From a virus, in IMG/VR virus record IMGVR_UViG_3300017963_002942, positions 1 through 33,901 of that record: a stretch of 33,901 nucleotides of DNA. The stretch is one strand, 5' to 3'. Every line of letters starts with the position of its first letter. Within the stretch, counting starts at the first letter, position 1. This document shows positions 1,590-32,878 of the stretch, piece after piece. A program made the translations under genes and the position numbers. Below the pieces are notes generated by a model. It had not been told where the DNA came from and did no database searches. It saw nothing but the letters and a program-made list of their open reading frames with translations.

Positions 1590-2202
1590 TGAACTTCCTT
1601 ATCGAATGAAGGACGGAGACCGATATTATCGAGTAACCAGTCTTATATCAATCCTTAATAGGCCAGAGTTAAACGAGTTACGGGGATTCAAGGGAAATAA
1701 GGAAATGGATCGAATCATGAATGAAACAGCCACTATTGGTAGAATATTTCATGATCAAGCCGTTCAAATGGTGGAACTTCGAGAACATTATGAATACCTT
1801 ATCAATACAACTTATGATGATATTTTAGAACCTATGTGCAAAAAATATCTTGAATTTATTCTCGAAAATGTAGTCAAAGCCAAATGTCATGAAAAAACAA
1901 TGTTCTCAAAAAAATTCGGGTATTGTGGCAGAATAGATGATCTTTATTTATTTAAGAATAGAAAAACCTATGACTTAATAGATATTAAAACATCTAAAAT
2001 CAGACACTATTCTCATGCCTTACAATTATCAGCATATAAAAATCTATTAAAAGAACATGGAATTGAATGTTCAAATAGATATATAATATCTGTACCCAGG
2101 GACGGATCACCAGTAAAGATGTATAAAATAACAACGGATCATAATATAGACTTTTACAATTTTTTACACTGTAAAACTTTATTTATAGCCGTTAATAATT
2201 AA
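1558..2202 (+). CDS. PD-(D/E)XK exonuclease, RecB/Cas4-like partner of Bet
   Basis: This 214-residue protein has the RecB-type nuclease motifs in order: GRIFH with H65, GRIDDL with D127 or D128, DLIDIKT with D142 and K144, and QLSAY with Q156 and Y160. That set is the catalytic core of metal-dependent 5'-3' exonucleases in phage recombination modules. It overlaps the end of bet by 32 bases, and AAGGA (1548-1552) serves as its SD inside bet, so production of the two proteins is probably coupled. The assignment to the PD-(D/E)XK fold is firm. Exonuclease activity, as opposed to endonuclease activity, is inferred from the pairing with Bet. Confidence 0.82.
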   Translation: MKQKIKKTNNDELPYRMKDGDRYYRVTSLISILNRPELNELRGFKGNKEMDRIMNETATIGRIFHDQAVQMVELREHYEYLINTTYDDILEPMCKKYLEFILENVVKAKCHEKTMFSKKFGYCGRIDDLYLFKNRKTYDLIDIKTSKIRHYSHALQLSAYKNLLKEHGIECSNRYIISVPRDGSPVKMYKITTDHNIDFYNFLHCKTLFIAVNN

Positions 2203-2211
2203 GGTGAAAAA

Positions 2212-2421
2212 ATGAAAATCAAATTATATTTAGATGATCATGAATTAGAAACAATAAAAGGGCTTATATATAAGCATAATCGAAAAGCAATGGTTATATA
2301 TATGACAAAGCGAGAAAACAGCGTACAAAGGCACTGTGTCACTTTAAATGTACCTCAATTAAAGTTGACAACGGAAAATAAGAAAATATTATTAAATACC
2401 AAATTAAAAAAGGAGAATTAA
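2212..2421 (+). CDS. small basic protein of unknown function
   Basis: This 69-residue protein lies between the exonuclease and a coiled-coil protein, with AAGGTG as SD seven bases before the ATG. I recognise no family. It begins MKIKLYLDDHELETIKGLI, a strand followed by a helix, and has several strand-like stretches after that. It has no cysteine pairs and no membrane segment. The stop abuts the next start codon (2421/2422), so it belongs to the same operon and may be translationally coupled. Confidence 0.6.
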   Translation: MKIKLYLDDHELETIKGLIYKHNRKAMVIYMTKRENSVQRHCVTLNVPQLKLTTENKKILLNTKLKKEN

Positions 2422-3018
2422 ATGGAAAAACAAAATTTTACAAAAGATCAAGAAATTAAAAAGGTTAGTAAAAATCTACCAGGTATGATTGAATCGGCCG
2501 AACAACTGGAAATCTTGAACCAGGAAACAAGGGAAACAGCCGTAACTATTCTTGGTGAATTAAAAAAGGTTAAGTCACTTGTCAATGACAGAAAATTATT
2601 TTATACAAAACCATTAAAACAAATGATGACAGACTATAATACAATGGCCAATAACTTTCTGGAACCAATAAAAAAGGCCGATCAATTAATTAGAGGAAAA
2701 CTAATTAAATATGATGACTACCTGGAAGACCTTAAACGAAAAGAGGAAGAAAAACTTAAAAAGAAAACCGAAAAAGCGATCCAGGAAAATAAACCTTTAC
2801 CAGTAGCCAAACCAATAGACACTACAAAAAAAGTCAAATCAGAAAATAATACTTTTACTGTTACCAAAGTCAGAAAATTTGAAATAACAGATGAAATGGA
2901 ACTTCCCCGTCAATTTTTAACACCAGACTTAAAGAAAATCGGGAAACTTGTCAAGGCTGGTATAGAGGAAATTCCAGGTGTGAGAATCTGGACTGAAAAA
3001 TCAAGCATGGTAAGATAG
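2422..3018 (+). CDS. conserved phage coiled-coil protein of the recombination module
   Basis: This is a 198-residue protein. Residues 1-115 are mostly helical and coiled-coil-like, with heptad-like EKKADQLIRGKLIKYDDYLE. A charged linker follows. The C-terminal block has FEITDEMELPRQFLTPDLKK and then IPGVRIWTEKS. I know this ending (a leucine-proline block, a PD..KI..LVKAG stretch, then IPGVRI.EE) from a widespread phage protein next to Bet or RecT genes. Its biochemical role is not settled. By position it could aid or control the recombinase or inhibit host nucleases, as Gam does, but no Gam motif is clear. AAAAGGAGAATTAA provides the SD. Confidence 0.6.
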   Translation: MEKQNFTKDQEIKKVSKNLPGMIESAEQLEILNQETRETAVTILGELKKVKSLVNDRKLFYTKPLKQMMTDYNTMANNFLEPIKKADQLIRGKLIKYDDYLEDLKRKEEEKLKKKTEKAIQENKPLPVAKPIDTTKKVKSENNTFTVTKVRKFEITDEMELPRQFLTPDLKKIGKLVKAGIEEIPGVRIWTEKSSMVR

Positions 3019-3028
3019 CAGATAAAAA

Positions 3029-3064
3029 GGGGAAGAATCAGAAATGGTTCTTCCCCAGGAGGGG
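3029..3064 (+). promoter_or_regulatory. intergenic hairpin abutting a strong ribosome binding site
   Basis: GGGGAAGAA (3029-3037) pairs perfectly with TTCTTCCCC (3048-3056), leaving a 10-base loop. The stem is followed with no gap by AGGAGGGG, the SD for the ATG at 3072. There is no U-tract, so it is not an intrinsic terminator. The layout suggests an mRNA processing or stabilising hairpin that also keeps the ribosome binding site exposed. Similar arrangements occur at 13329 and 19231. Confidence 0.6.
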
Positions 3065-3071
3065 TTCTTTA

Positions 3072-3632
3072 ATGGACAAAAAAACTAAAGATAAATTAAA
3101 TGAAATTATGCTGAACAAACAGTTCACTAACTATGATAAGATCATTCAAATTTATATATCAATAAATGGGAAGGATAAAGCATATAAATTGGCCAATGTT
3201 CTGGGAATACCTACACTATTCATAGAAGAATACCAGGTTCCAGAAGATCTTCCTAAACCAAAAATGGAAAAATCTATGATGACAAAATATATCAATATAT
3301 TCACTGAATATCATAAAATGATACATGGCCGAAAATATGACTTTGATCCAACGGAAATTGGCCAGTTAAAAAATTGCATTAAAAAATTTAAGGATCTGGA
3401 AACTTTTACCAATATTTTGATCCTATTAGAACAAAAAAATAAAAGAATAAAAGGTAAACAATTCACAAAAGATAAGTCTACCTGGAATTTTATAATTTCA
3501 AACATGCGACCGTCGATTATTTATAAAAATCGTAATTTTATTTTAAATGCAGAAGAAACGGCCGATAAAAACCTTGACAAAAAGCAGAAAACAAAATGGG
3601 GGTGGAATGATCACTGTAAAGTTGAAAAATGA
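3072..3632 (+). CDS. putative replication initiator / replisome organiser
   Basis: This 186-residue, mostly helical, basic protein lies directly before a DnaC-like helicase loader. That is where phages usually place the origin-binding or replisome-organiser protein. The segment FTEYHKMIHGRKYDFDPTE (about residues 76-94) followed by QLKNCIKKFKDL and NFIISNMRPSIIY resembles the C-terminal helical domain of phage replisome organisers and DnaD-like proteins. I cannot identify a definite HTH in the N-terminal 60 residues. Function is inferred mainly from neighbours. The gene has the hairpin-SD arrangement at 3029-3064. Confidence 0.4.
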   Translation: MDKKTKDKLNEIMLNKQFTNYDKIIQIYISINGKDKAYKLANVLGIPTLFIEEYQVPEDLPKPKMEKSMMTKYINIFTEYHKMIHGRKYDFDPTEIGQLKNCIKKFKDLETFTNILILLEQKNKRIKGKQFTKDKSTWNFIISNMRPSIIYKNRNFILNAEETADKNLDKKQKTKWGWNDHCKVEK

Positions 3633-3649
3633 TTTTAATATAGTATTAT
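3622..3649 (+). promoter_or_regulatory. probable promoter before the helicase-loader gene
   Basis: TTGAAA (3622-3627), a 16-bp spacer and TATTAT (3644-3649) form a good sigma70-type promoter overlapping the end of the preceding gene. The leader that follows repeats ACCAAACAAAA (3655-3665), exactly as after the promoter at 402, and runs into GGAGG. The shared leader makes a functional start here more likely. Confidence 0.5.
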
Positions 3650-3677
3650 AAAAAACCAAACAAAAATGGAGGATCTA

Positions 3678-4349
3678 ATGTCAAAAGGAAAATGTCAATT
3701 TTGTGGCCAGACTTATTCTTATAAGTCTATTGGCCAAATAATGGATCAAGGAATCAAGGTGCCAGATTATGAATGTGACTGCATGAAAAAGCACCTGGAA
3801 GAAGAACGAAAATCAAAGCACATTGAAAAAGTCGGTCACTTATATAGGGAATCTAAAGTAGATCGATTCTGGCTTGAATCAAAGTTCAAAGTTTATAATA
3901 AAAAGTTGATCCCTTATTATGAGAATTTAGACTGGATAAAAAACGGGATCCAGTTGTTATGCTATGGGGGACCTGGTAATCATAAAACTGGCCAGGTAAC
4001 CAGTATAGCAAAAAAAGTTATGAGATATCTACACTCGGTTAAATATTTTCGGGCAAATGATATCCCTCACCAATGGAAACAATATAACAAAATGAAAACT
4101 TGCTCATTATTGATTATTGACAACTTCGGACTGGAAGTTTACGAAGGAAGTCGGGGGTCATTATTTGAAATAGTCGACTATCGAATCCATAATTACAAAT
4201 CAACCATTATAATAAGTAATGGGGATCTCGACGATATAAACGAGATATATAAAACGCCTTTTGTTTCAAGGCTGAAATGCTTTACAGCCATTGAAATAGA
4301 CGGTGAAGATAAAAGAATCGAAAAATATGGGAGGTCAACCAATGACTAA
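3678..4349 (+). CDS. DnaC-like AAA+ helicase loader with N-terminal zinc finger
   Basis: This 223-residue protein has an N-terminal zinc-binding module (C6, C9, C33, C35), followed by a single AAA+ domain. The P-loop is GGPGNHKTGQ (residues 97-106), Walker B is LLIIDNFG (144-151), and SRLKC near the end is the arginine-rich sensor region. Size and order match DnaC/DnaI helicase loaders, which place the replicative helicase on DNA. Two residues are unusual: histidine stands before the P-loop lysine where glycine is normal, and the second Walker B acid is asparagine. I chose the ATG at 3678, nine bases after GGAGG, over the in-frame ATG at 3666 that overlaps the SD. It overlaps the next gene by eight bases. 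Confidence 0.75.
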   Translation: MSKGKCQFCGQTYSYKSIGQIMDQGIKVPDYECDCMKKHLEEERKSKHIEKVGHLYRESKVDRFWLESKFKVYNKKLIPYYENLDWIKNGIQLLCYGGPGNHKTGQVTSIAKKVMRYLHSVKYFRANDIPHQWKQYNKMKTCSLLIIDNFGLEVYEGSRGSLFEIVDYRIHNYKSTIIISNGDLDDINEIYKTPFVSRLKCFTAIEIDGEDKRIEKYGRSTND

Positions 4350-4857
4350 AGAATTGACAAGTAAAGACAGACAAGACCTGGCTGAATTATATGATAGGAT
4401 CATAGATGAAAAATCAGTTCTTATCAGAAAAAGTACCATAATGTTAGCGTCAGCTTTTTATGAAATAAAAGAAAATAATTTATACCTGGAAAAGAACTTC
4501 GAAACCTTTGAACATTATTGTATAGAAAAAGATTTTATGCCGAGTACAATAAAAAGATATATTAAGGTTTATCAAGATTTATGTCTTCAAGGAAAAATAA
4601 AGCCAAAAGAGATCCAGGATATTGCATTGAATAAATTATCTTTGATTAAAAATCTGGAAGATAAAAACAAATGGATCCAGGACGCCAGAGTTTTAAAATA
4701 TAAAGATCTTAAAAGAAAAATTAATGAATCACAAGGACTTCCAGTAAAAGAGGAAATCGACGAGTACCTGGAAAAAAAGGAACGAAAAGAACAAGAACAA
4801 ATCAGCCATATAGGTTGCCCTCACTGGCAAGGAAGGTGTAAACTTGAAAAATACTAA
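4342..4857 (+). CDS. HTH-containing protein, KorB/ParB-HTH-like
   Basis: This 171-residue helical protein has a segment ENNLYLEKNFETFEHYC, then MPSTIKRYIKVYQDL (about residues 48-85). The pattern of a length-variable helix, 'F.tFe.YC', and a recognition helix 'STikRYI' recalls DUF3102-like and ParB-type HTH domains in phage early regions. The C-terminal third is charged and coiled-coil-like and ends with C-H-C residues (GCPHWQGRC). The ATG at 4342 is preceded by GGGAGGT and overlaps the loader gene, giving coupled expression with the replication genes. DNA binding is probable. The target and role are unknown. Confidence 0.5.
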   Translation: MTKELTSKDRQDLAELYDRIIDEKSVLIRKSTIMLASAFYEIKENNLYLEKNFETFEHYCIEKDFMPSTIKRYIKVYQDLCLQGKIKPKEIQDIALNKLSLIKNLEDKNKWIQDARVLKYKDLKRKINESQGLPVKEEIDEYLEKKERKEQEQISHIGCPHWQGRCKLEKY

Positions 4858-7160: not shown

Positions 7161-7368
7161 TAAAAAAATACCTAAAATTGGCCAGACTGAAAAAGAAAAA
7201 GCCCAGGAACTGGTTGACAAATTTAAAAAAATGCACCCTCATGAGATCCAAATTTATGTAGCAACTCAAATATTAAATATGGCTAAAAATATTTATACTT
7301 TAGATCATAAAATTAATCAAATAAAAAGTTTAGTGGAGGAACTTCATGCCGAAAACAATACCAATTAA
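7153..7368 (+). CDS. small helical protein of unknown function
   Basis: This 71-residue protein is predicted by eye to be mostly helical, with KEKAQELVDKFKKMHPHEIQ and a final heptad-like helix around HKINQIKSLVEELHAENN. I recognise no family. The ATG at 7153 is nine bases from GGAGG (7139-7143). The ATG at 7147 would be too close. It overlaps the HNH gene by eight bases and the ParB-like gene by 23 bases, so it is read with both. Confidence 0.6.
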   Translation: MFNKKIPKIGQTEKEKAQELVDKFKKMHPHEIQIYVATQILNMAKNIYTLDHKINQIKSLVEELHAENNTN

Positions 7369-8032
7369 AGCCAAAGGAACTGATTATTTACCATTGAAAA
7401 AGTTAAAGTTTTTTCAAGGGAATCTTAAAGAATTAAAAAGAGCAGAGTTTGAAAAATTGAGATCTTCAATTCTTAAATATGGGTTTAGGATCCCAGTATT
7501 CACCTGGAAGGAAAATATTATAGATGGTCACCAGAGGATCTTCGTATTAAATAAGTTGATTAAAGAGGGCTACACAGTTGAGGGAGATATCCCGACTATT
7601 GAAATAGTAGCAAAAGATAAATCGGACGCTAAAAAGATCCTTTTATTAATTAATGCCAGGTATGGAAAAATGTCTTATGAAGGGCTTTATGAGTTCTTAA
7701 ACGATACAGAGATTGATCCGTCTTCCTTTTTAAAAGAGTTAGATCTTCCAGAAATTGATCCAGAAAGATATATGTACCAATTTCATGATGATATTGATAC
7801 AGCAAATTTTGACGAAACTAATATGGAACATGGTATGGTCGGGAAGGCTCCAGATCGGGGATATAGACTTTCAGAAGGGTTAACTTTTAGGCTCGGGAGA
7901 TACCAGATAAATATTGGAGCAAAAATGAAAGGGTTCAAAACCATAGCCAGACTTGAAAAGGCTTTAATGGAAGACAGAGTAAAAGAGGAAGTTTTAATCG
8001 AATTTATGAGAGGATTTTATGCAAAAAATTAA
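7346..8032 (+). CDS. ParB/Srx-superfamily protein with methyltransferase-linker-like C-terminus
   Basis: In this 228-residue protein, residues 12-120 match the ParB-N/Srx domain: a 'F..L..SI.kyGf..Pv' block, then NIIDGHQRIFVL (59-68, in place of GERR/GHRR), then KKILLLINARYGKMSYEGLYEFL, the 'LniAlNki.geWde..L' block of phage ParB proteins linked to DNA methyltransferases. Residues 176-191 (SEGLTFRLGRYQINIG) resemble 'GDLW.LGrHrLlcGD', which begins the methyltransferase half of such fusions, but no methyltransferase follows. The gene overlaps a radical SAM gene by 14 bases. ParB-fold proteins can bind and hydrolyse nucleotides or bind DNA. Here a targeting or partner role for the radical SAM enzyme is inferred. 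Confidence 0.72.
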   Translation: MPKTIPIKAKGTDYLPLKKLKFFQGNLKELKRAEFEKLRSSILKYGFRIPVFTWKENIIDGHQRIFVLNKLIKEGYTVEGDIPTIEIVAKDKSDAKKILLLINARYGKMSYEGLYEFLNDTEIDPSSFLKELDLPEIDPERYMYQFHDDIDTANFDETNMEHGMVGKAPDRGYRLSEGLTFRLGRYQINIGAKMKGFKTIARLEKALMEDRVKEEVLIEFMRGFYAKN

Positions 8033-9299
8033 ATTCGTTCCAGAGTTGATCAACGAATATAGTTATATTCCAGCCTTATTCCTGGCCAATGTCAATCCTA
8101 AACAATTCGAGATATCAAGCGATGTCAAAAAAACTGATATCCTGGGATTGACAGTTTTTGATTCTCAAAGTCTTGTTTATTTAAGAAAAGCAAGAAAAAA
8201 ATATCCAAATAATAAGATCATAGTCGGGGGAATAGGTGTAACTGATCTATACCATTATATTCTGGAATATGCAGATTATGTTTATTTTGGTCAAGCGTTC
8301 GAGTTTGATGATAATTGTGTATTGGAAAAAAAGGGAACTAAAAAGATCAAATATAATAATGCTATACCCTGGGAAAAGATACCTATTGTAAGAACTGGGA
8401 AAAAATCATGGTATTTTATGATCGAATCTGGTTGCCCTTTTAAGTGTGAATATTGTAATGTATCTCATATTTCTAAATTTGACAGTATGCCAGGAGAGGT
8501 TTTTTTTGATAAGGTGTTTAGATTTGATATTAAATATAAAGGCCAGTTTGTACGCCTATTATCTAATGAGGGTTACTTTATATACCGACACTTTGAAAAA
8601 TATAATAAATTAAAGCATAATAGATACTTGTCTTCCAGTATTCCCTTGAAATCTTTTGTTAAATATTATAAAAAGGGAGTTAACCAGACTAAAGAACCAG
8701 TTTTGAGGTTTGGAATCGAGTTGCCTACGGAGGAATTAAGAAAAAAGATCTTACCACCAGTAAAGCATATTTCAGACGATGAGATTTTAGATGTAATTTA
8801 CAGAATGAATCTTATGGGCCAGGATATAACCTTATTCTTATTATACAACTATCCAGGAACTACACCAGAAGATTTTGAACGAATTTATGAACTATTGACT
8901 TATGCAGAGATAAAAAAGAGGAAGATCCGAGTAAGTATGTCAACTTTTACTATGCTATCGACTTTTAGAAAGTCTTATTCAGCGTCAGAATATGTTGATC
9001 ATCTATTAGACTTCCCGAATTTTGATACTACCGAAACTCATAGGAATTTAAGACGAGTGCATGGACTGAAAGTATTGGCGCCGGCTCACATGAAAAGGGC
9101 TTTACACTTTCACTCGCACATGTTTCTTCCTGGAGGGACAAAGTTACCCAGTATCTCAAACCCTAAAATAACGGCCAGATCTTACCTGGATAAATTGCAG
9201 AAATATAACCCTGATCTTAATATCTATAAGACTATGGATTCTATGTTCAAAGGACGGGTATTAAAAAACGGATATTATCATTTAACCTGGGGTGAATAA
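8019..9299 (+). CDS. B12-binding-like radical SAM enzyme
   Basis: This 426-residue protein has the radical SAM cluster motif C139-x3-C143-x2-C146 in IESGCPFKCEYCNVS, then an ELPTEELRKKILPPVKHISDDE-like stretch typical of the elongated TIM barrel. Before it, residues 30-105 (DILGLTVFDSQ, KIIVGGIGVTD, YADYVYFGQA) look like a Rossmann-type cobalamin-binding domain of class B radical SAM enzymes. Such enzymes usually methylate unreactive carbons. The base-off motif DxHxxG is not obvious, so cobalamin binding is unproven. This gene type is rare in phages. It overlaps the ParB-like gene and shares TAATG with the next, suggesting a dedicated module. The substrate is unknown. Confidence 0.75.
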   Translation: MQKIKFVPELINEYSYIPALFLANVNPKQFEISSDVKKTDILGLTVFDSQSLVYLRKARKKYPNNKIIVGGIGVTDLYHYILEYADYVYFGQAFEFDDNCVLEKKGTKKIKYNNAIPWEKIPIVRTGKKSWYFMIESGCPFKCEYCNVSHISKFDSMPGEVFFDKVFRFDIKYKGQFVRLLSNEGYFIYRHFEKYNKLKHNRYLSSSIPLKSFVKYYKKGVNQTKEPVLRFGIELPTEELRKKILPPVKHISDDEILDVIYRMNLMGQDITLFLLYNYPGTTPEDFERIYELLTYAEIKKRKIRVSMSTFTMLSTFRKSYSASEYVDHLLDFPNFDTTETHRNLRRVHGLKVLAPAHMKRALHFHSHMFLPGGTKLPSISNPKITARSYLDKLQKYNPDLNIYKTMDSMFKGRVLKNGYYHLTWGE

Positions 9300-9514
9300 T
9301 GGATATTAAAAAGGAATTAAAAAAAAGAAGAAAAAGTTACGGAGAATTATATGATATTAGAACATTAGATGATGCACCAATGAAACCATATTATGTTGAA
9401 CTTGAACAGATAATTGAACAGATGTATAATGCTTATAAGGAATGTTCAACTAATTGCTTGTATAATGAACAGTTGATGGAAAGAATTGAAAACATCATAA
9501 AGGAGAACAAATAG
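9299..9514 (+). CDS. small charged protein coupled to the radical SAM gene
   Basis: This 71-residue protein starts at the TAATG that ends the radical SAM gene, so its translation is probably coupled. It has a basic N-terminus (KKELKKRRKSYGELYDIRTL) and an acidic helical C-terminus with two cysteines (ECSTNCLYNE). I recognise no family. Its place directly behind the radical SAM enzyme makes it a candidate partner, chaperone or substrate of that enzyme, without sequence proof. Confidence 0.55.
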   Translation: MDIKKELKKRRKSYGELYDIRTLDDAPMKPYYVELEQIIEQMYNAYKECSTNCLYNEQLMERIENIIKENK

Positions 9515-9523
9515 GATAGTATA

Positions 9524-9688
9524 ATGAATATAAAAAAGAAAGTTAGAAAAATGAAGATTATAAAAAAATATAAATTATATAAACATATGCCTTGTTACGG
9601 GACTTGTTTTCAATGTGGTTTTTGTAATGATTTTATAGATATGATTATAGATATGGAAGATAAAAAAGGAATTAAAAATGGGTCATAA
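9524..9688 (+). CDS. 54-residue cysteine-rich peptide
   Basis: This short ORF has a lysine-rich first half and the cluster C24-x3-C28-x2-C31-x2-C34 (CYGTCFQCGFC), followed by an acidic helix. The cysteine spacing could hold zinc or an iron-sulfur cluster. It overlaps the start of the small terminase gene by 11 bases, and AGGA (9512-9515) is a modest SD. Its location two genes behind a radical SAM enzyme suggests a partner or electron carrier, or else a zinc protein of the packaging genes. The translation is credible but unproven. Confidence 0.45.
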   Translation: MNIKKKVRKMKIIKKYKLYKHMPCYGTCFQCGFCNDFIDMIIDMEDKKGIKNGS

Positions 9689-10163
9689 AATGACTAAACT
9701 GCAAAAAGAAGATCTTATCAATGGTATCGCTTTATTAATGAGTAATGGGATCACTACGAGGGAATCAATCTTGCGATATATTGCTGAAACCCTTAAAAAA
9801 ATGAAAATAACCAAATCACCCAGATCTATTGAATATTATATGACTTCTGCAAGAAAATTGATCCAGGCTGAAAATAAAGTTGAAATTAGTGATCATTTAA
9901 GTCTTGCCTTAAAACAGCGAAATACAATGATCGAGAAACTAATGAAAGAGAGGAAATACAAAACGGCTTTGCAGACTATGGACAGTCGGGATAGATTACT
10001 CGGTTTATTTATTGAAAAAGTAGAAGAATCTGGTAATATAAGCCAGACAGTTTTTTATGTACCAGATAATAATAGATTAATAAAAAAGGAGAATCAAAAA
10101 GATGGCAAAAATAAAGTACAAGAGAAGATCAAAAACAAAAAGAGTAAAAAGGATCCCGAATAG
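9678..10163 (+). CDS. terS: probable small terminase subunit
   Basis: This 161-residue protein has an N-terminal helical DNA-binding-like region (TTRESILRYIAETLKKM and SPRSIEYYMTSARKLI, about residues 26-65), a central helical oligomerisation-like stretch (LALKQRNTMIEKLMKERKY), and DRLLGLFIEKVEES followed by VFYVPDNNR. The 'PDN.R' ending after a beta strand is common in small terminases. It lies about 1 kb before the large terminase. The last 25 residues are very lysine-rich and overlap the next gene in another frame by 62 bases. A non-terminase DNA-binding role is possible, but the context favours packaging. Confidence 0.6.
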   Translation: MGHKMTKLQKEDLINGIALLMSNGITTRESILRYIAETLKKMKITKSPRSIEYYMTSARKLIQAENKVEISDHLSLALKQRNTMIEKLMKERKYKTALQTMDSRDRLLGLFIEKVEESGNISQTVFYVPDNNRLIKKENQKDGKNKVQEKIKNKKSKKDPE

Positions 10164-11094: not shown

Positions 11095-11214
11095 ATGAAT
11101 AGAGGTATAGAATTAAATTCAATATTAATGAAAAACATGTCGTCATTATTAGAACTTCAACATGATCTAAAAGTTTTTAATTATTGGCAATATATGAGGG
11201 GAATAATTAAATGA
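11095..11214 (+). CDS. 39-residue small protein coupled to the large terminase
   Basis: The ATG at 11095 has TAGGAGCC just upstream, and the stop forms ATGA with the large terminase start. The product, MNRGIELNSILMKNMSSLLE plus 19 residues, looks like a single amphipathic helix. It is too short for a family call. It may be a leader whose translation opens the terL start, since terL has no strong SD of its own beyond GAGGGG near 11196. Confidence 0.5.
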   Translation: MNRGIELNSILMKNMSSLLELQHDLKVFNYWQYMRGIIK

Positions 11215-12728
11215 GTGAAAAGGGAATCAAAGAACTAAATAAACAATTTGACGGTGTAGTTATACAGCCACAAGAGGGGAAACAAGAGATGTTTTTATCT
11301 TCCCCAGTAGATGTTGCTATATATGGAGGGTCTGCTGGTGGTGGTAAAACATGGGCTTTGTTAATGGAGTTCAGCCATTATATTAATCAGCCAGGTTACA
11401 ATTCTGTTATATTCAGAAAAAACTCAAATCAAATAAGAAACCCACAAGGCCTATGGGATCAAGCATTAAAAATATATTCGAAGTATTCACCAAAGCCAAA
11501 TTTTAGGGAAACTATTTTGCAGATTGATTTTCCTCATTCGAGATTAAAGTTTGCACATTTAGATAAGGAAAAGTCTGTTTATAATTGGCAAGGATCAGAG
11601 ATCTGTTTCCTGGGCTTTGATGAGTTAACTCACTTTTCAAGAGATCAGTTTTTCTATTTATTTTCAAGGAATAGATCACTATGTGGAGTTCGACCTTATA
11701 TTCGGGCAACTTGTAATGCTGACGCAGATTCCTGGGTGAAAGAATCTTTTATTGAGTGGTACCTGGATCAAAACGGGGAATATGCAGATGAGACAAAAAC
11801 GGGAGCAATTAGATATTTTATTGTAGTCAATGATACTATAAAGTGGGGAAATACAGCCGAGGAACTGGAAAAGGCCTATCCTGGATCAATGCCACTATCA
11901 TTCACTTTTATTAACTCAAATGTATTCGATAATAAAATCTTAATGGACAGTGATCCGAAATATTTATCAAATCTCGACGCCTTGCCACTGGTAGAACGGG
12001 AACGATTGAAAAAGGGGAACTGGAAGATCAAACCGACTGGAGGTCTGGTATTCAAAACCGAGTGGTTCGAGATTATTAATACACCACCAAAAGTATTCAA
12101 GCGTATGGTTAGATACTGGGATAGAGCAAGTACTGTTCCCAGTAAAAAGAATACAGATCCAGATTATACGGCTGGTGTCTGTATGGCTGAAGGGTTCGAT
12201 GGAATGTACTATGTTTTAGATGTAGCCAGGTTCAGAGAATCTCATCATAAGGTCAAGATCAATATTAAAAATAAAGCAAGTCAAGATAATAGTTCACAAA
12301 TTTGTTATGGTGGACTGGAGCAAGAACCAGGTGCGAGTGGAAAAGCCGAAGTTAAAGATCTTATAAAGTTCTTGTCTGGATATCACTTTAAGGCGTACCA
12401 GGTAACTGGAGATAAGGTAACGAGAGCCATGCCAGTTTCTGCTCAAAGTGAAGCGGGTAATGTTAAAATAGTAAAAGGGAAGTGGAATGATGATTTTTTA
12501 ACGGAACTGGAAAATTTTGATGGATCAGATTCTGGACATGATGATCAAGTTGATGGTTTTTCTGGTGCTTTTTATATGTTGACAAGAGCCAATAAGATCC
12601 AAACCTGGGAATCAACATCACAAGTTCGGCCAATAGATAAAAAGATGGATAAAGAATCGGCTGATCAACGAATCAAAGAACGAATTATGCAAAAGAAAAA
12701 CAATAGATCTAATGGATCAGTCTGGTAA
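11211..12728 (+). CDS. terL: large terminase subunit (packaging ATPase-nuclease)
   Basis: This 505-residue protein has a P-loop AIYGGSAGGGKTWAL (G39-T47), Walker B ICFLGFDEL, and coupling motif ATCNAD (in RATCNADADSW) of the packaging ATPase. The nuclease half carries YWDRAST with the first catalytic aspartate, a middle GLEQEPGASG segment, and HDDQVDGFSGAF with the last aspartates of the RNase-H fold. It threads DNA into the prohead through the portal and cuts it. Full length is typical of the family. All key motifs are present and nothing looks broken. The gene is rich in GATC and CCWGG sites (see findings). Confidence 0.95.
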   Translation: MSEKGIKELNKQFDGVVIQPQEGKQEMFLSSPVDVAIYGGSAGGGKTWALLMEFSHYINQPGYNSVIFRKNSNQIRNPQGLWDQALKIYSKYSPKPNFRETILQIDFPHSRLKFAHLDKEKSVYNWQGSEICFLGFDELTHFSRDQFFYLFSRNRSLCGVRPYIRATCNADADSWVKESFIEWYLDQNGEYADETKTGAIRYFIVVNDTIKWGNTAEELEKAYPGSMPLSFTFINSNVFDNKILMDSDPKYLSNLDALPLVERERLKKGNWKIKPTGGLVFKTEWFEIINTPPKVFKRMVRYWDRASTVPSKKNTDPDYTAGVCMAEGFDGMYYVLDVARFRESHHKVKINIKNKASQDNSSQICYGGLEQEPGASGKAEVKDLIKFLSGYHFKAYQVTGDKVTRAMPVSAQSEAGNVKIVKGKWNDDFLTELENFDGSDSGHDDQVDGFSGAFYMLTRANKIQTWESTSQVRPIDKKMDKESADQRIKERIMQKKNNRSNGSVW

Positions 12729-16009: not shown

Positions 16010-16692
16010 TGGCCGAAATATCCTTTTTAGAAGAACTGGGTCAACTCGGAGTTTCTGTTTCTGATCGGAAAAGTATTGCTCGGGAAATGGGGATCTTTGA
16101 GGAAAATTTACAGTCTAATATTGATACATTCAAAAATAAATCTTCTCTATTAGTGGCCAATTTACGAAAGCGTGGATCAACAGATCAAGATATCATTAAT
16201 GTTCTTTTAGATGATTTTGATAATAATGGCCAATTATTCGGATCTTTAAAAAGACAAATGTTCGGTGCCAGTGTTGAAATGCTACAAAATGTCGATAATG
16301 ATATCAAATTAACAGAGTGGAAAGAACAAGGATATAGTGAAGACGAAACCTGGGTCTCTGTTTTAGTCAATACTTGTGAGGACTGTTTCCCCCGTCATTC
16401 AGTAACCAGGCCACATAATGAGTGGGTGGAAATGGGCTTACCTGGAACGGGGTGGAGTGTCTGTAAGGCCAGGTGCCAATGTCAATTAATCCCGAATAGT
16501 ATATCAGAATCAAAAGAACAATTATTGAAACCTATAAAAAGGGTACGGGGTGAAATTCTGCAGAAAGCCAGGAAATTAAAAAAGCAAGGCAAGATTAAAA
16601 ATACAAGTAATTATGTCAACTCTAAATTAAGACAACTTAATAATAAAAAAAATCCATTTAGAAAAGAAATCCTAAAAGCCAAGAGGACGTAA
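16009..16692 (+). CDS. MuF-like minor head protein
   Basis: This 227-residue protein resembles the C-terminal MuF/SPP1 gp7 domain. The segment TWVSVLVNTCEDCFPRHSVT is followed by NEWVEMGLPGTGW and VCKARCQCQLIP, giving cysteines C123, C126, C152, C156, C158 and H130 as a likely zinc site. The gene's position after portal is the standard one. Such proteins sit inside the prohead near the portal and may be ejected with DNA. The N-terminal half is helical, and the C-terminal 60 residues are lysine-rich. It is joined to the preceding and next genes by one-base overlaps. Confidence 0.65.
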   Translation: MAEISFLEELGQLGVSVSDRKSIAREMGIFEENLQSNIDTFKNKSSLLVANLRKRGSTDQDIINVLLDDFDNNGQLFGSLKRQMFGASVEMLQNVDNDIKLTEWKEQGYSEDETWVSVLVNTCEDCFPRHSVTRPHNEWVEMGLPGTGWSVCKARCQCQLIPNSISESKEQLLKPIKRVRGEILQKARKLKKQGKIKNTSNYVNSKLRQLNNKKNPFRKEILKAKRT

Positions 16693-17312
16693 TGTTTAGA
16701 AGGCCCGAAAATAAAGATGAAACGAATTATTTAAAAGACAATACAAGTGAACTTAAATTTCTGATTAATAAATATGATCGACTGTTTATTTTAGGCACTG
16801 GTACAAGTTTAATGGGAGCCAACTTATCTTTATTAAATAATGAATTGACAATAGGGATCAGTCATTCAGCCAGTCTGTTTTTACCAAATATTCTGGCGTG
16901 GGTTGATGAAAGTTTCACTCAATTTTTATATGAACAAGGATATCATGGATTTAATCATCAGTTAATGAGTAATCGAGCAATAAATAAAAATATGTATAAA
17001 GAAGATCCCGAATATAGAAAATTTATTAATTCACTTGATTATAAATTTGATCCCAGTAAATTAAAAGGAAGTTTAACAAGTGTATTTATTTTTGAGTTAT
17101 TAAAAGATTATGTCGGGGAGATTTATCTTCTCGGATTCGACTTTTATCCTGGCCATATATATAAAGAAACTTCCCCAGGTTGGGTATCAAAAAATCTTGA
17201 TAAGGCCAGAGATCAACATGAAGGGTATGATATGACTATTTATAACTGTAACAAAAATAGTAATTTAAAATGCTACCCTTTTAAAATATTAGAGGAAGTA
17301 ATCAATGGTTAA
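16692..17312 (+). CDS. DUF115 / glycosyltransferase-like Rossmann protein
   Basis: This 206-residue protein has RLFILGTGTSLMGANLSLL (about residues 29-47), a nucleotide-binding-like start with a GTGTS loop, then IGISHSASLFLPNILAWVDE, and later GSLTSVFIFELLKDYVGEIY-LLGFDFY. The 'YLLGFDF' strand and the 'GTG.SL' loop are typical of DUF115 (MptE/Maf-like) and sialyltransferase-like proteins that act on sugars or nucleotide-sugars. It is an odd gene between minor head protein and scaffold. It could modify virion proteins or the host surface. No catalytic residues can be named safely. Confidence 0.5.
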   Translation: MFRRPENKDETNYLKDNTSELKFLINKYDRLFILGTGTSLMGANLSLLNNELTIGISHSASLFLPNILAWVDESFTQFLYEQGYHGFNHQLMSNRAINKNMYKEDPEYRKFINSLDYKFDPSKLKGSLTSVFIFELLKDYVGEIYLLGFDFYPGHIYKETSPGWVSKNLDKARDQHEGYDMTIYNCNKNSNLKCYPFKILEEVING

Positions 17313-28798: not shown

Positions 28799-31700
28799 AT
28801 GGCTGATGAAAAATTATTATTTCATTATGATTTTAAAAAAGAATATACTATTGAAAAAGTTAACGAGATAGGTGCAACTATTGACGAAACAATTAGAACA
28901 GTTGTCACTACTACTGATTCAAATTGTAAATATGTAAAAAAATTCGGGACACCTTATCAAATAAAATCTGTTACAGATATAGATGATCCAGGAACTAATT
29001 TAAACTTTTTAATAAAAACCATTGATGAGGAAGTCATAGGTGGAAGACTGGACGGGTTGGCTTTTAATATTGTAAAAGAAAAACTCAACACAGATACAGA
29101 TGACAATACAAATTCAATAGATCTTGATTCAAATGGAAATGTTCATGTAATATATTATGATGATGTTTTAGATGGTTTATATTATCTAAATAATATAAAT
29201 AATATATGGAATAAAGAACTGGTCTTATCTTCAACAGCAATAAATTATAGTAGAATAAAAGTAGATTCTAATGATAAGATCCATATAGTGTTGATCAACG
29301 AATCCGACGAAGTTATATATTTAGAAAATACTTCTGGAACCTGGACTTCTGTTACAGTTGATGATTCAACGGTCAATACAGAATCCGATATAGATTTAGA
29401 TTCTAATGATTATGCTCATATAGTATATAAAGATTCAGATAATTTTAAAATAAGGTATGCAGAAAATACGGGTGGAAGTTTTACTAAAACAGAAATCGGT
29501 AATTGTGATTCAAGTGTCGGTACTTCTATTGCTGTTGATTCGGCTGACAAAGTTCATATTGCTTTTTCTGATAATTCGGATAACTTAGAATATGCTACAA
29601 ATACTACTGGTTCCTGGGTTAATACAGATGTCTATACATCTGGGTTAGTTACAGAAGGGGTGTCAATAGATACTGATTCAAACAATTATGCTTATATATC
29701 TTTTTATAATGGTGTTACTCTACCTACACCAGTTCAAGATCTTTTATATGCTACAAATAAAACGGGTTCCTGGGTTGTTAGTACCATTGATAGTACTAAT
29801 GATGTTGGAAGATATTCCTCTATAAATATTGATTCGGCCGACAAAGTTCATATATCATATAATGATCTTACAAATAGGAACTTGAAATATGCCACAAATA
29901 CTACTGGATCTTTTGTAATATCTGTTCTTGATACAGACAATACAGATATAGTCAAATATTCAAATCTCAAAACAGATTCGAGTAACAGAATTAATATAGC
30001 ATATAATAGTAATGAGTTTAGAGTTATATATTCAATCCCTACTATTGTTTTAGATGATCCTAAAACTGTTTATCTTCAAATAGATGGATATGGTTCTGGC
30101 ACTTTGTCTACTTCTATTAATATAGATACAGATGTTGACGCCAGTGGTTATTCTTTTATTGCACCTGGTGAAAGTATTATTGATGATCAACAAATAAAAT
30201 TATACTTGTCTTATTCTGGTAGTACATATTATGATCAAAATTATAAGCATGGTGGAGCCCGTCATACTCCGACTGGAGTGGAAAGGCTACCATATTTCAA
30301 AATTCAAGACGCCATAGATACAGTAACTCCGACTTTTATAAATGTAGAGGTACTGGATTCTGAAATCTACGAGGAAATAATAACCATTAATGATAATAAT
30401 ACAAATATTCAATCTTCACTCGGCCAGACGCCGACTATTAAAGCACCAGGTTGTGGTGCCAGGATATCAAGAGAGGTTGAAAATGATGGTAATAATATTG
30501 ATACTATTTATGTTGGTAAATCTGGTAGTGATTCAACGGGTGACGGGACTTACCAGAAACCATATTTCAGTTTACAATATGCTCATGATAATTTGAACGG
30601 GAGAACTAATATAAATATAATAGATTCTTTAGGTTATGCCGAAGGATTAAGTGTAACTAATGTCATAACTTTAGAACCTATCTATGGAGAGGTTCCTATT
30701 TTTACGGGTGGATATCAAATTCATATTATAACTGGAGGAAATGGATCCACTATTATAGGATTAGATTTGAGATTTTCTACTCCAGAAGCGATCTTATGTT
30801 ACCAGGCTGGTAGTAGTAATATTTTGGATAATTCAATTACTAATGCTACGATAGGTATTAAATATGATTCATCTTCTGTTAGTGGAGATATAAAAAGGAA
30901 TAAGATTAGAAATATTTATACTGGGCTTTTATGCAATACGGGATCTAATGGAGCAAGTATTGAAAATAATATAGTAGGGGATTGTGCAAACGGTTTATTT
31001 ATAGCGTTCACTTCAACTACTTCTGGAATAAGTATAAAAAATAATATTATTCATGACTGTTCATTATATGGAATTGAACAAGTAGGGGGAAATAATGCGA
31101 CAATAGAAAATAATACAATTTACAAATGTAATGTAGGAATTGATTATGGATCACTTCCTACTGGAAATACTATAAGAAATAATATAATATATAACTCTAC
31201 TTCTTACGATCTTGTAGATACTTCAACAGCCCAGACTATTACTTATTCTTGCTTTATAACTAATAACGGGTTCACAGAAGGGACTGGAAATGTCAAATCT
31301 GATCCCTTATTAAGTCAAGTTTTTACACCTTATAAACTGGGGATATCACCAATAAGCCCAGTAATTAGAAAAGATTCTAATAGTAAAGATATAGGAACTA
31401 ATTTAGACCTCATAACTATAACAGCCAATAATATAACTATAAATGGGTTCATTATTGACGGAAATGATTTTTTTAATTATGGAATCATTGATTCAACCGA
31501 TACCAATTATACTGGGTTTATAAGCAAATATAATGATGTTATAAACTGTACTTCCTCGGGAATATTTCTTTATGATTCAGATACAGATACGGACGCTCAA
31601 ATTTTAAATACAAAAGTTTATAAAAATGGTAGTGGTATATCTTTATTTTATGGTGGTAATACATTAAAAAATAACTTGATATATCGTAATTCTCAAATTG

Positions 31701-32878
31701 GATTATATTCTAATTATTTATCAACGATAATTCAATCAAATGTATTCTTTTCAAATTCAGAAGGGATCAGATTTGATGAGAATACGGCTGGTACAACAAT
31801 AGTAAATAATATATTCGATAATAATTTTGAGTATGGAATTTATTCAGCCGTAATTGTTGTAGGTACTTATAATTGCCATACGGATCCTATTTTAAATGTT
31901 AATTTTGATGATGAAACAAATATTATCATTGATCCTCTTTTTATTAATATAGAACAAGATTCAGAAGATTTTAATTTGAGATCAGTAGAAGGGGGATTCA
32001 AATACGAATCATCATTAATAAATAGAGGGATCGGTGGTGCTGATATTGGAGCCTATATTGTTGATCGTGAATTGCTATCTGAACAGATCAAATCTTATCA
32101 ATTAGACTATAACCCTTTTATGGTGGAACGAAGTTTGAAATTAAAAGGTCAAACGAAATTTGATAACGCCCTCGGATCACTTTCTACTTTTGGGAGATCT
32201 CATAAAATGATCTTCAATCTACAATGGAATGATGACGATTTACAGACTGAAAAACAATTATTCACTATGAGATATTTAAGTCAATTAAGTAAAACGAGAG
32301 AAAACGAAAAATCAGATGAAAATGTAAAAGTCTATTTTCATTTAAGGCCAGAGGAAAAAGAATTGACTGGATCATCTGGAATTATTTCTGGCTCAAAATT
32401 AAATGATTCGTTACTTAACCTGGCTGAAAATAGATATAAAGGATATCACCTGGCTGTTAAATTCGAATCTGGGTCTGGAATGATTATTGACGCAGACGCT
32501 AAAACTGGAACTGTTTCTGGTGCAGAGTGGACGGAAGATCAATGGAAGGGATATTATATATATTATAATTTGAACTATCATATTATAATTAGTAACACAT
32601 CGGACACTATTACAGTATCGGATATTTATGGAGTATTAATAGATGGTGTTATAAATTATTCCTTTGAAAAATATTTCAAAATCTTAAAACATTCACCAAA
32701 TGAATTTTGTTTATATGATCCAAATTCTGAATTGACAAATGGTACTTATGCTTATTATATTGACTTTGTGGAATGTATAATCACCAATGCACTTTTCAAA
32801 CCAAAACAAGATTCTGGGTTCAGAGAAACTCAATATCACCAACAAACTGGAATCCAGATCACACTGGAGGAAAAATAG
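28799..32878 (+). CDS. large tail protein: seven-repeat beta-propeller plus parallel beta-helix
   Basis: This 1359-residue protein follows the tape measure. Residues about 106-417 hold seven repeats of roughly 45 residues, each starting with an S/D-I-D-x-D-S-x-x-x-x-H/N-I core and carrying a 'YATNTTGSW'-like segment, which fits one seven-bladed propeller. Residues about 515-1095 carry many NNxI and GI repeats of the right-handed beta-helix (PbH1) kind, for example SIENNIVGDCANGLFI and TIENNTIYKCNVGIDYGS. The last 250 residues (from NPFMVERSLKLKGQTKFDNA) look like a tail attachment domain. It is probably a host-binding or glycan-degrading spike. No catalytic pair is identifiable. Confidence 0.72.
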   Translation: MADEKLLFHYDFKKEYTIEKVNEIGATIDETIRTVVTTTDSNCKYVKKFGTPYQIKSVTDIDDPGTNLNFLIKTIDEEVIGGRLDGLAFNIVKEKLNTDTDDNTNSIDLDSNGNVHVIYYDDVLDGLYYLNNINNIWNKELVLSSTAINYSRIKVDSNDKIHIVLINESDEVIYLENTSGTWTSVTVDDSTVNTESDIDLDSNDYAHIVYKDSDNFKIRYAENTGGSFTKTEIGNCDSSVGTSIAVDSADKVHIAFSDNSDNLEYATNTTGSWVNTDVYTSGLVTEGVSIDTDSNNYAYISFYNGVTLPTPVQDLLYATNKTGSWVVSTIDSTNDVGRYSSINIDSADKVHISYNDLTNRNLKYATNTTGSFVISVLDTDNTDIVKYSNLKTDSSNRINIAYNSNEFRVIYSIPTIVLDDPKTVYLQIDGYGSGTLSTSINIDTDVDASGYSFIAPGESIIDDQQIKLYLSYSGSTYYDQNYKHGGARHTPTGVERLPYFKIQDAIDTVTPTFINVEVLDSEIYEEIITINDNNTNIQSSLGQTPTIKAPGCGARISREVENDGNNIDTIYVGKSGSDSTGDGTYQKPYFSLQYAHDNLNGRTNINIIDSLGYAEGLSVTNVITLEPIYGEVPIFTGGYQIHIITGGNGSTIIGLDLRFSTPEAILCYQAGSSNILDNSITNATIGIKYDSSSVSGDIKRNKIRNIYTGLLCNTGSNGASIENNIVGDCANGLFIAFTSTTSGISIKNNIIHDCSLYGIEQVGGNNATIENNTIYKCNVGIDYGSLPTGNTIRNNIIYNSTSYDLVDTSTAQTITYSCFITNNGFTEGTGNVKSDPLLSQVFTPYKLGISPISPVIRKDSNSKDIGTNLDLITITANNITINGFIIDGNDFFNYGIIDSTDTNYTGFISKYNDVINCTSSGIFLYDSDTDTDAQILNTKVYKNGSGISLFYGGNTLKNNLIYRNSQIGLYSNYLSTIIQSNVFFSNSEGIRFDENTAGTTIVNNIFDNNFEYGIYSAVIVVGTYNCHTDPILNVNFDDETNIIIDPLFINIEQDSEDFNLRSVEGGFKYESSLINRGIGGADIGAYIVDRELLSEQIKSYQLDYNPFMVERSLKLKGQTKFDNALGSLSTFGRSHKMIFNLQWNDDDLQTEKQLFTMRYLSQLSKTRENEKSDENVKVYFHLRPEEKELTGSSGIISGSKLNDSLLNLAENRYKGYHLAVKFESGSGMIIDADAKTGTVSGAEWTEDQWKGYYIYYNLNYHIIISNTSDTITVSDIYGVLIDGVINYSFEKYFKILKHSPNEFCLYDPNSELTNGTYAYYIDFVECIITNALFKPKQDSGFRETQYHQQTGIQITLEEK

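Follow-up and report, generated by a model that had tools for sequence, protein, structure and literature searches.

A ParB-like gene overlapping the gene for a predicted B12-type radical SAM enzyme in a phage packaging block: a candidate two-gene modification module

Introduction

Phages alter their own DNA in many ways to evade host defence, and most of the DNA writers known from phages belong either to the classical SAM-dependent methyltransferases or to hypermodification pathways. The described systems closest to the one considered here are the phage ParB-methyltransferase fusions (PHROG_498; PV036429, PV036453 and Porphyromonas phage BK068102), which carry a C-terminal N6/N4 methyltransferase domain with a DPPY motif. 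In Porphyromonas phages the fusion gene lies a few genes upstream of the gene for the large terminase subunit (TerL), and a ParB-methyltransferase also occurs in the terminase region of another record, L053. For BCE_0392, the one fusion studied, a prophage ParB-methyltransferase with a nicking-associated activity, a role in phage replication or packaging has been proposed (PMC3459991; PMC5512222).

The window analysed here is a virus record of 33.9 kb, and the term refers to the whole of that stretch. It contains a ParB-like protein whose core is homologous to that of the fusions (BLASTP E 4e-13, 27-30% identity), but the methyltransferase domain is wholly absent, and in its place there is a separate, overlapping gene for a radical SAM enzyme. 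The same is true of a second contig, L046. The gene pair is real and no one-off, having two independent occurrences, and it is a candidate for a new, two-gene form of ParB-linked modification. In the window it is preceded by a recombination and replication block (RecT, exonuclease, helicase loader) and followed by a packaging and structural block. The latter includes TerL (11211..12728, plus strand; PF03237 E 2e-26, PHROG_979 E 2e-160) and, outside the pair, a probable small terminase subunit (TerS; 9678..10163, plus strand). The TerS assignment was made by eye and from position: the ORF has no Pfam or PHROG family match, and its C-terminal TVFYVPDNNR resembles TVIYIPENNR of the PHROG-supported TerS in a further relative, L018.

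The ParB-like protein

The ParB-like protein has the ParB/sulfiredoxin fold assignment and a length of 228 aa (7346..8032, plus strand), and its start is preceded by a GGAGG ribosome-binding site. It matches PHROG_498, which is annotated as DNA methyltransferase and is a ParB-methyltransferase family, with E 8e-15 over residues 8-149, and the ParB-like family PHROG_620 with E 5e-10. A custom profile built from eight ParB-methyltransferase sequences gives 50 bits over residues 29-167. The [DG]GHQR motif that marks the phage ParB-methyltransferase branch of the ParB/Srx superfamily is present, in agreement with the preliminary description, which had recognised a phage DGHQR-type core here. A structure prediction from two sequences reached a pLDDT of 35.

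The protein ends at residue 228, where a fusion would continue into the N6/N4 domain. PF01555 is not found anywhere in the whole window record, nor is a DPPY-like motif found in any window ORF of at least 60 aa. The window record is without an N6/N4 methyltransferase, and the earlier remark that the methyltransferase itself is missing is borne out.

It had also been proposed that residues 176-191 are a segment like the start of a methyltransferase half. By eye they do resemble GDIWLLGRHR, and one pairwise BLASTP alignment runs through them. However, the tail compared alone scores no better than shuffled sequences (p 0.06-0.15 for the linker region, 0.30-0.60 for whole proteins), and the eight-sequence profile ends at residue 167, leaving 176-191 outside. 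A methyltransferase remnant in the tail is thus unsupported by either approach, and we have abandoned the idea. There is weak similarity between this tail and the tail of the L046 ParB (p 0.03), which makes it more likely to be a feature of the ParB family of the window and L046 than a leftover of a methyltransferase.

The radical SAM enzyme

The end of the ParB gene overlaps the start of the radical SAM gene by 14 nt (8019..8032, plus strand), exactly as first described, and a GAGAGGA Shine-Dalgarno-like site lies upstream of this start, inside the ParB gene. Together, the overlap and the internal site suggest translational coupling. The enzyme has 426 aa (8019..9299, plus strand) and matches PF04055 above the gathering score (E 2.3e-8). 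Its [4Fe-4S] motif, C139-P-F-K-C143-E-Y-C146 (CxxxCxxC; 8433..8456, plus strand), is invariant in the window, L046 and L018. The family match, the motif (in 3/3 relatives) and the predicted fold all place it in the radical SAM superfamily, and confirm the earlier reading of a radical SAM enzyme with a CxxxCxxC cluster. Three regions can be distinguished: a Rossmann or B12-binding-like N-domain (about residues 1-100), the core (about 120-300) and a C-terminal region (about 300-415).

The cysteines conserved among the three relatives are only those of CxxxCxxC. The methyl-accepting and C-terminal cysteines that characterise class A (RlmN/Cfr) are not conserved across them, and the N-domain holds a single, unconserved cysteine (C100), compared with the three needed in a methylthiotransferase (MiaB/RimO). 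This argues against chemistry of either type and keeps class B open, so that, as far as the residues go, B12-type or plain radical SAM chemistry would remain.

The B12-binding family PF02310 falls below threshold in the window enzyme (20.2 bits, where the cut-off is 32.1) and also in that of L046. The AlphaFold model, made with 17 natural sequences (pLDDT 87.6), nevertheless has a complete and compact Rossmann-like N-domain. The best structural match is the B12-dependent C-methylase MgmA (Foldseek E 7e-14; VIA-align Z 20.3, 353 residues), with which the model aligns over residues 3-371. CysS, AprD4, MiaB, MTAB and RimO follow, with OxsB and TsrM close behind, and the N-domain is aligned from residue 1-3 with MgmA, TsrM and OxsB. 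The VIA-align list does not name every B12-dependent radical SAM family, and absence from it carries no evidential weight. The cobalamin-domain-like N-terminus of the preliminary description thus finds its counterpart in the model, if not in the Pfam score.

The predicted architecture is that of the class-B and methylthiotransferase enzymes, and by its fold the protein appears to be a B12-type enzyme that may depend on cobalamin. As in the model, class-B enzymes (MgmA, CysS, AprD4, TsrM, OxsB, TokK), a type that frequently transfers methyl groups, have a Rossmann-like N-domain followed by a core with CxxxCxxC. They differ from the window protein in that the identity is only 9-14%, and in that the N-domain here is compact, under the Pfam cut-off and, in L018, mostly missing.

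Conservation of the gene pair

L046 (7.6 kb, 58% GC compared with 33% for the window) has the order TerS (679-1146), ParB (1182-1877), radical SAM (1847-3118), TerL (3123-4778), so that the genes for the two terminase subunits directly flank the pair. Its ParB, 33% identical to that of the window, is again without a methyltransferase domain, and there is a 31-nt overlap at the same junction. The N-terminus of the enzyme is kept (MQKIKFVPELI in the window, MQRIRFVRELI in L046), and identity to the window enzyme is 37% for L046 and 36-38% for L018. The best-matching family of TerL differs between the two, being PHROG_979 for the window and PHROG_2 for L046, which indicates that the pair is not simply the property of one phage lineage; an overlapping pair beside the terminase genes is therefore found in an unrelated phage as well.

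In L018, a fragment of 19.8 kb, the order is radical SAM-TerS-TerL, and ParB is not found anywhere in the record, so the enzyme is not always accompanied by ParB. The L018 enzyme begins in the middle of the N-domain, most of the cobalamin-like part being gone. It is worth adding that in this gene (L018 2761-3871) a strong AGGAGG site is followed by a short EVEEEEK stretch of low complexity in place of the N-domain; this could be either a natural deletion of the domain or decay. When the two ParB-paired enzymes are compared, conservation is highest in the N-domain (49%, compared with 37% in the core). That this domain is best kept where ParB is present and mostly lost where ParB is lacking hints, on the strength of a single case, that it may work with ParB. 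The charge follows the same division: both paired enzymes are strongly basic (pI 9.5 and 9.8, net +21 and +25), and the L018 enzyme is neutral.

A tree of 17 radical SAM enzymes recovers the window, L046 and L018 as a robust family (100/99), with the window branching outside L046 and L018 (89/75). Given this topology, the ancestor probably had the pairing and L018 has lost it, the support for this branching being modest.

Overlap between neighbours is ordinary in the window (15 of the 36 adjacent gene pairs), and it is the conservation in L046 that makes the pair more than chance. Among the matches listed, the full pair occurs in two contigs, the window and L046, so the search for it across phage sequences, one of the checks suggested earlier, shows the pairing to be conserved. 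The preliminary description had further proposed that a radical SAM enzyme took the place of the methyltransferase. The recurrence of the pair in the terminase region of L046, and a fold nearest to B12-type C-methylases, fit this proposal; the notion that the methyltransferase was cut off leaving a remnant is not supported. Taken as a whole, the original observation is partly confirmed and its interpretation partly supported.

Two small ORFs follow the enzyme in the window, of 71 aa (9299-9514) and 54 aa (9524-9688). Both exist as first noted, and the second does have four cysteines, in CYGTCFQCGFC (C24-x3-C-x2-C-x2-C). They have no counterpart after the enzyme in L046 or L018, where it is directly followed by TerL and TerS, respectively. 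They are therefore not part of a conserved unit, and we no longer regard them as a complement of the pair. In its own right, the 54-aa product resembles a miniature Fe-S or zinc-binding protein.

L046 and L018 were found by a scan of viral contigs centred on CxxxCxxC, in which the query alignments were padded with made-up motif variants to broaden the pattern; tblastn against the unaltered protein of the window then confirmed the matches, giving at least two relatives of the enzyme. Single-sequence scans of viral contigs with the enzyme, the ParB and the major head protein gave no relative. Nor did tblastn of the window, L046 and L018 enzymes against 50,697 phage records give anything at E up to 0.001-0.1, the window enzyme having one chance match at E 5. 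In 72,556 plasmid records there was no match to the window enzyme and there were two weak partial matches (E 0.03) to that of L046. A scan of genome contigs returned only distant B12-type enzymes. Whole-genome searches of 289, 296 and 369 genomes from three phyla gave no relative, a result of little weight since the phage hosts may lie elsewhere. In the literature, as far as our incomplete coverage goes, ParB and radical SAM in phages are only incidentally mentioned together.

A sister family beside csf genes

The nearest relatives of the window, L046 and L018 enzymes form a five-member viral sister family (L019, L021, L025, L028 and L033; joint clade 98/96, each subfamily 100/99). Unexpectedly, all five adjoin type IV CRISPR-like csf genes on viral contigs: Csf2/Cas7 in all of them, Csf3/Cas5 in L021, L025 and L033, and Csf1/Cas8 in L025 and L028. 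The clusters lie at 5979-9786 in L025, 5519-9475 in L021, 6230-9098 in L019, 4830-9071 in L028 and 5249-8778 in L033. The radical SAM gene is inside or directly beside the cluster, and in L025 it overlaps Csf1 and Csf3. Both families occur on viral contigs, and in both the neighbouring genes encode proteins that probably bind nucleic acids, but the partner is Csf1/Csf2/Csf3 in one and ParB in the other, and identity between the families is 18-23%. ParB is not found in three whole csf contigs (L019, L021, L025).

Pairs of ParB with a PAPS-reductase-like protein exist (IbrB/IbrA). Type IV-B systems usually have CysH as their ancillary enzyme, and the possibility that CasCysH modifies DNA has been discussed (PMC8175902). 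Type IV-B with its CysH-like protein and IbrB/IbrA have a design like that of the window pair, namely a nucleic-acid- or NTP-binding partner together with an enzyme of unknown substrate; the difference is that a radical SAM enzyme is found here in place of CysH. CysH/PAPS reductase (PF01507) is not found in the window, L018, L046 or the csf contigs. Within our incomplete coverage of the literature, no paper was found that reports a radical SAM enzyme in type IV clusters, and the link of this clade to csf genes bears on the old question of what the ancillary enzyme does in type IV-like systems.

Possible function

Our preferred reading, to which we give a probability of about 0.42, is a two-gene phage module in which ParB guides a class-B radical SAM modifying enzyme of the packaging block, in the niche occupied elsewhere by ParB-methyltransferase fusions. 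A ParB-superfamily protein of NTPase and DNA-binding type and the enzyme would be made together and act together; ParB would bring the basic enzyme to phage nucleic acid, where the [4Fe-4S]/SAM radical, perhaps with cobalamin, would add a methyl or other group to a base. This modification would take place before or during packaging, for example as protection of the DNA or as a packaging mark. The physical interaction, the DNA substrate, the methylation chemistry and the use of cobalamin are all things that we infer. In support of such a module, we note that the overlap and the place beside the terminase are conserved in two divergent phages and that the fold is closest to a C-methylase, MgmA. 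The basic charge of the paired enzymes, and a sister family tied to csf nucleic-acid effector genes, speak for a nucleic acid. Against the module are the restriction of the full pair to two contigs among the matches listed and the presence in L018 of the enzyme without ParB, which implies that ParB is not indispensable there, although that record is a fragment. The L046 ParB, with an acidic pI of 4.6, does not look like a simple DNA binder. We know of no radical SAM enzyme of known function that methylates DNA. The more specific form of the proposal, a ParB-targeted enzyme that modifies carbon atoms of DNA (for example by cobalamin-dependent C-methylation of a base) and would thus be the first radical SAM methylase in a DNA-modification system, with the sisters doing the equivalent together with csf complexes, is unlikely. 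If true, a ParB-linked radical SAM writer would be a new chemistry among phage DNA modifications, and the pair offers a concrete two-gene system.

The strongest rival follows from the structural match itself. MgmA is a protein methylase, acting on a glutamine of methyl-CoM reductase, and this counts against a DNA substrate; the window enzyme might be an MgmA-like C-methylase of a phage or host protein, such as terminase, a capsid protein or ParB itself. Many radical SAM enzymes work on peptides, and in each of the three relatives the gene lies together with those for terminase. On the other hand, likeness of fold among class-B enzymes does not give the substrate, as enzymes that act on tRNA or small molecules are also among the VIA-align rows at Z 17 to 20; a domain for peptide recognition was not noted in the enzyme, and both the ParB partner and the csf-linked sisters point to nucleic acids. 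We consider a protein target somewhat unlikely. The same alignments could be read in favour of tRNA or phage RNA, modified in the manner of MiaB, RimO or MTAB so as to adapt host translation, with ParB being regulatory or incidental: complexes of MiaB with RNA reach Z 17 in an alignment of about 320 residues, and the enzyme is basic. The three N-domain cysteines of the methylthiotransferases are missing, however, C100 being the only one and unconserved, and the gene lies in a packaging block, not near tRNAs. We regard an RNA substrate as improbable.

Binding or hydrolysis of NTPs is a property of ParB/Srx proteins, some of which serve as nucleases in conflict systems (PMC5512222, PMC10853773). 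This, together with the sister family in csf clusters, could point to a ParB-linked nucleotide or defence/counter-defence system, in which the enzyme would produce a modified nucleotide or, jointly with ParB, serve as an effector that depends on NTP. The Foldseek matches to viperin are weak, at E about 2e-3, the genes are placed in the packaging block, and the enzyme has no toxin or nuclease signature; we give this reading little credence. An equally small chance attaches to the two genes being unrelated accessory genes that happen to share a variable spot beside the terminase genes, a place where phages keep such genes. Overlaps are common in the window, both genes together are known from only two contigs among the matches listed, and L018 has the enzyme alone; but the order and the junction overlap are the same, and the two genes have diverged together, in phages that differ both in GC content (33% and 58%) and in the family of their TerL. 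Set against these alternatives, the ParB-guided modification of phage nucleic acid is the reading that we prefer.

Other observations

In three Heliusvirales phages an amidoligase gene lies within a few genes of a ParB-methyltransferase (L004 6354-8085, L005 5257-6159, L057 5647-6351), and in L004 there is also an annotated gamma-glutamyl cyclotransferase. The amidoligase and the ParB-methyltransferase are possibly a further ParB-linked modification module.

Two other genes of the window deserve mention. Between the head-morphogenesis and scaffold-like genes there is an ORF of 206 aa (16692-17312) with a weak match to a phage alpha-2,3-sialyltransferase (PHROG_4603, E 6e-5), a possible glycosyltransferase inside the head gene block. 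A late protein of 1359 aa (28799-32878) has right-handed beta-helix repeats (PF13229 E 1e-13, NosD-like), and is probably a tail protein or one that degrades the host surface.
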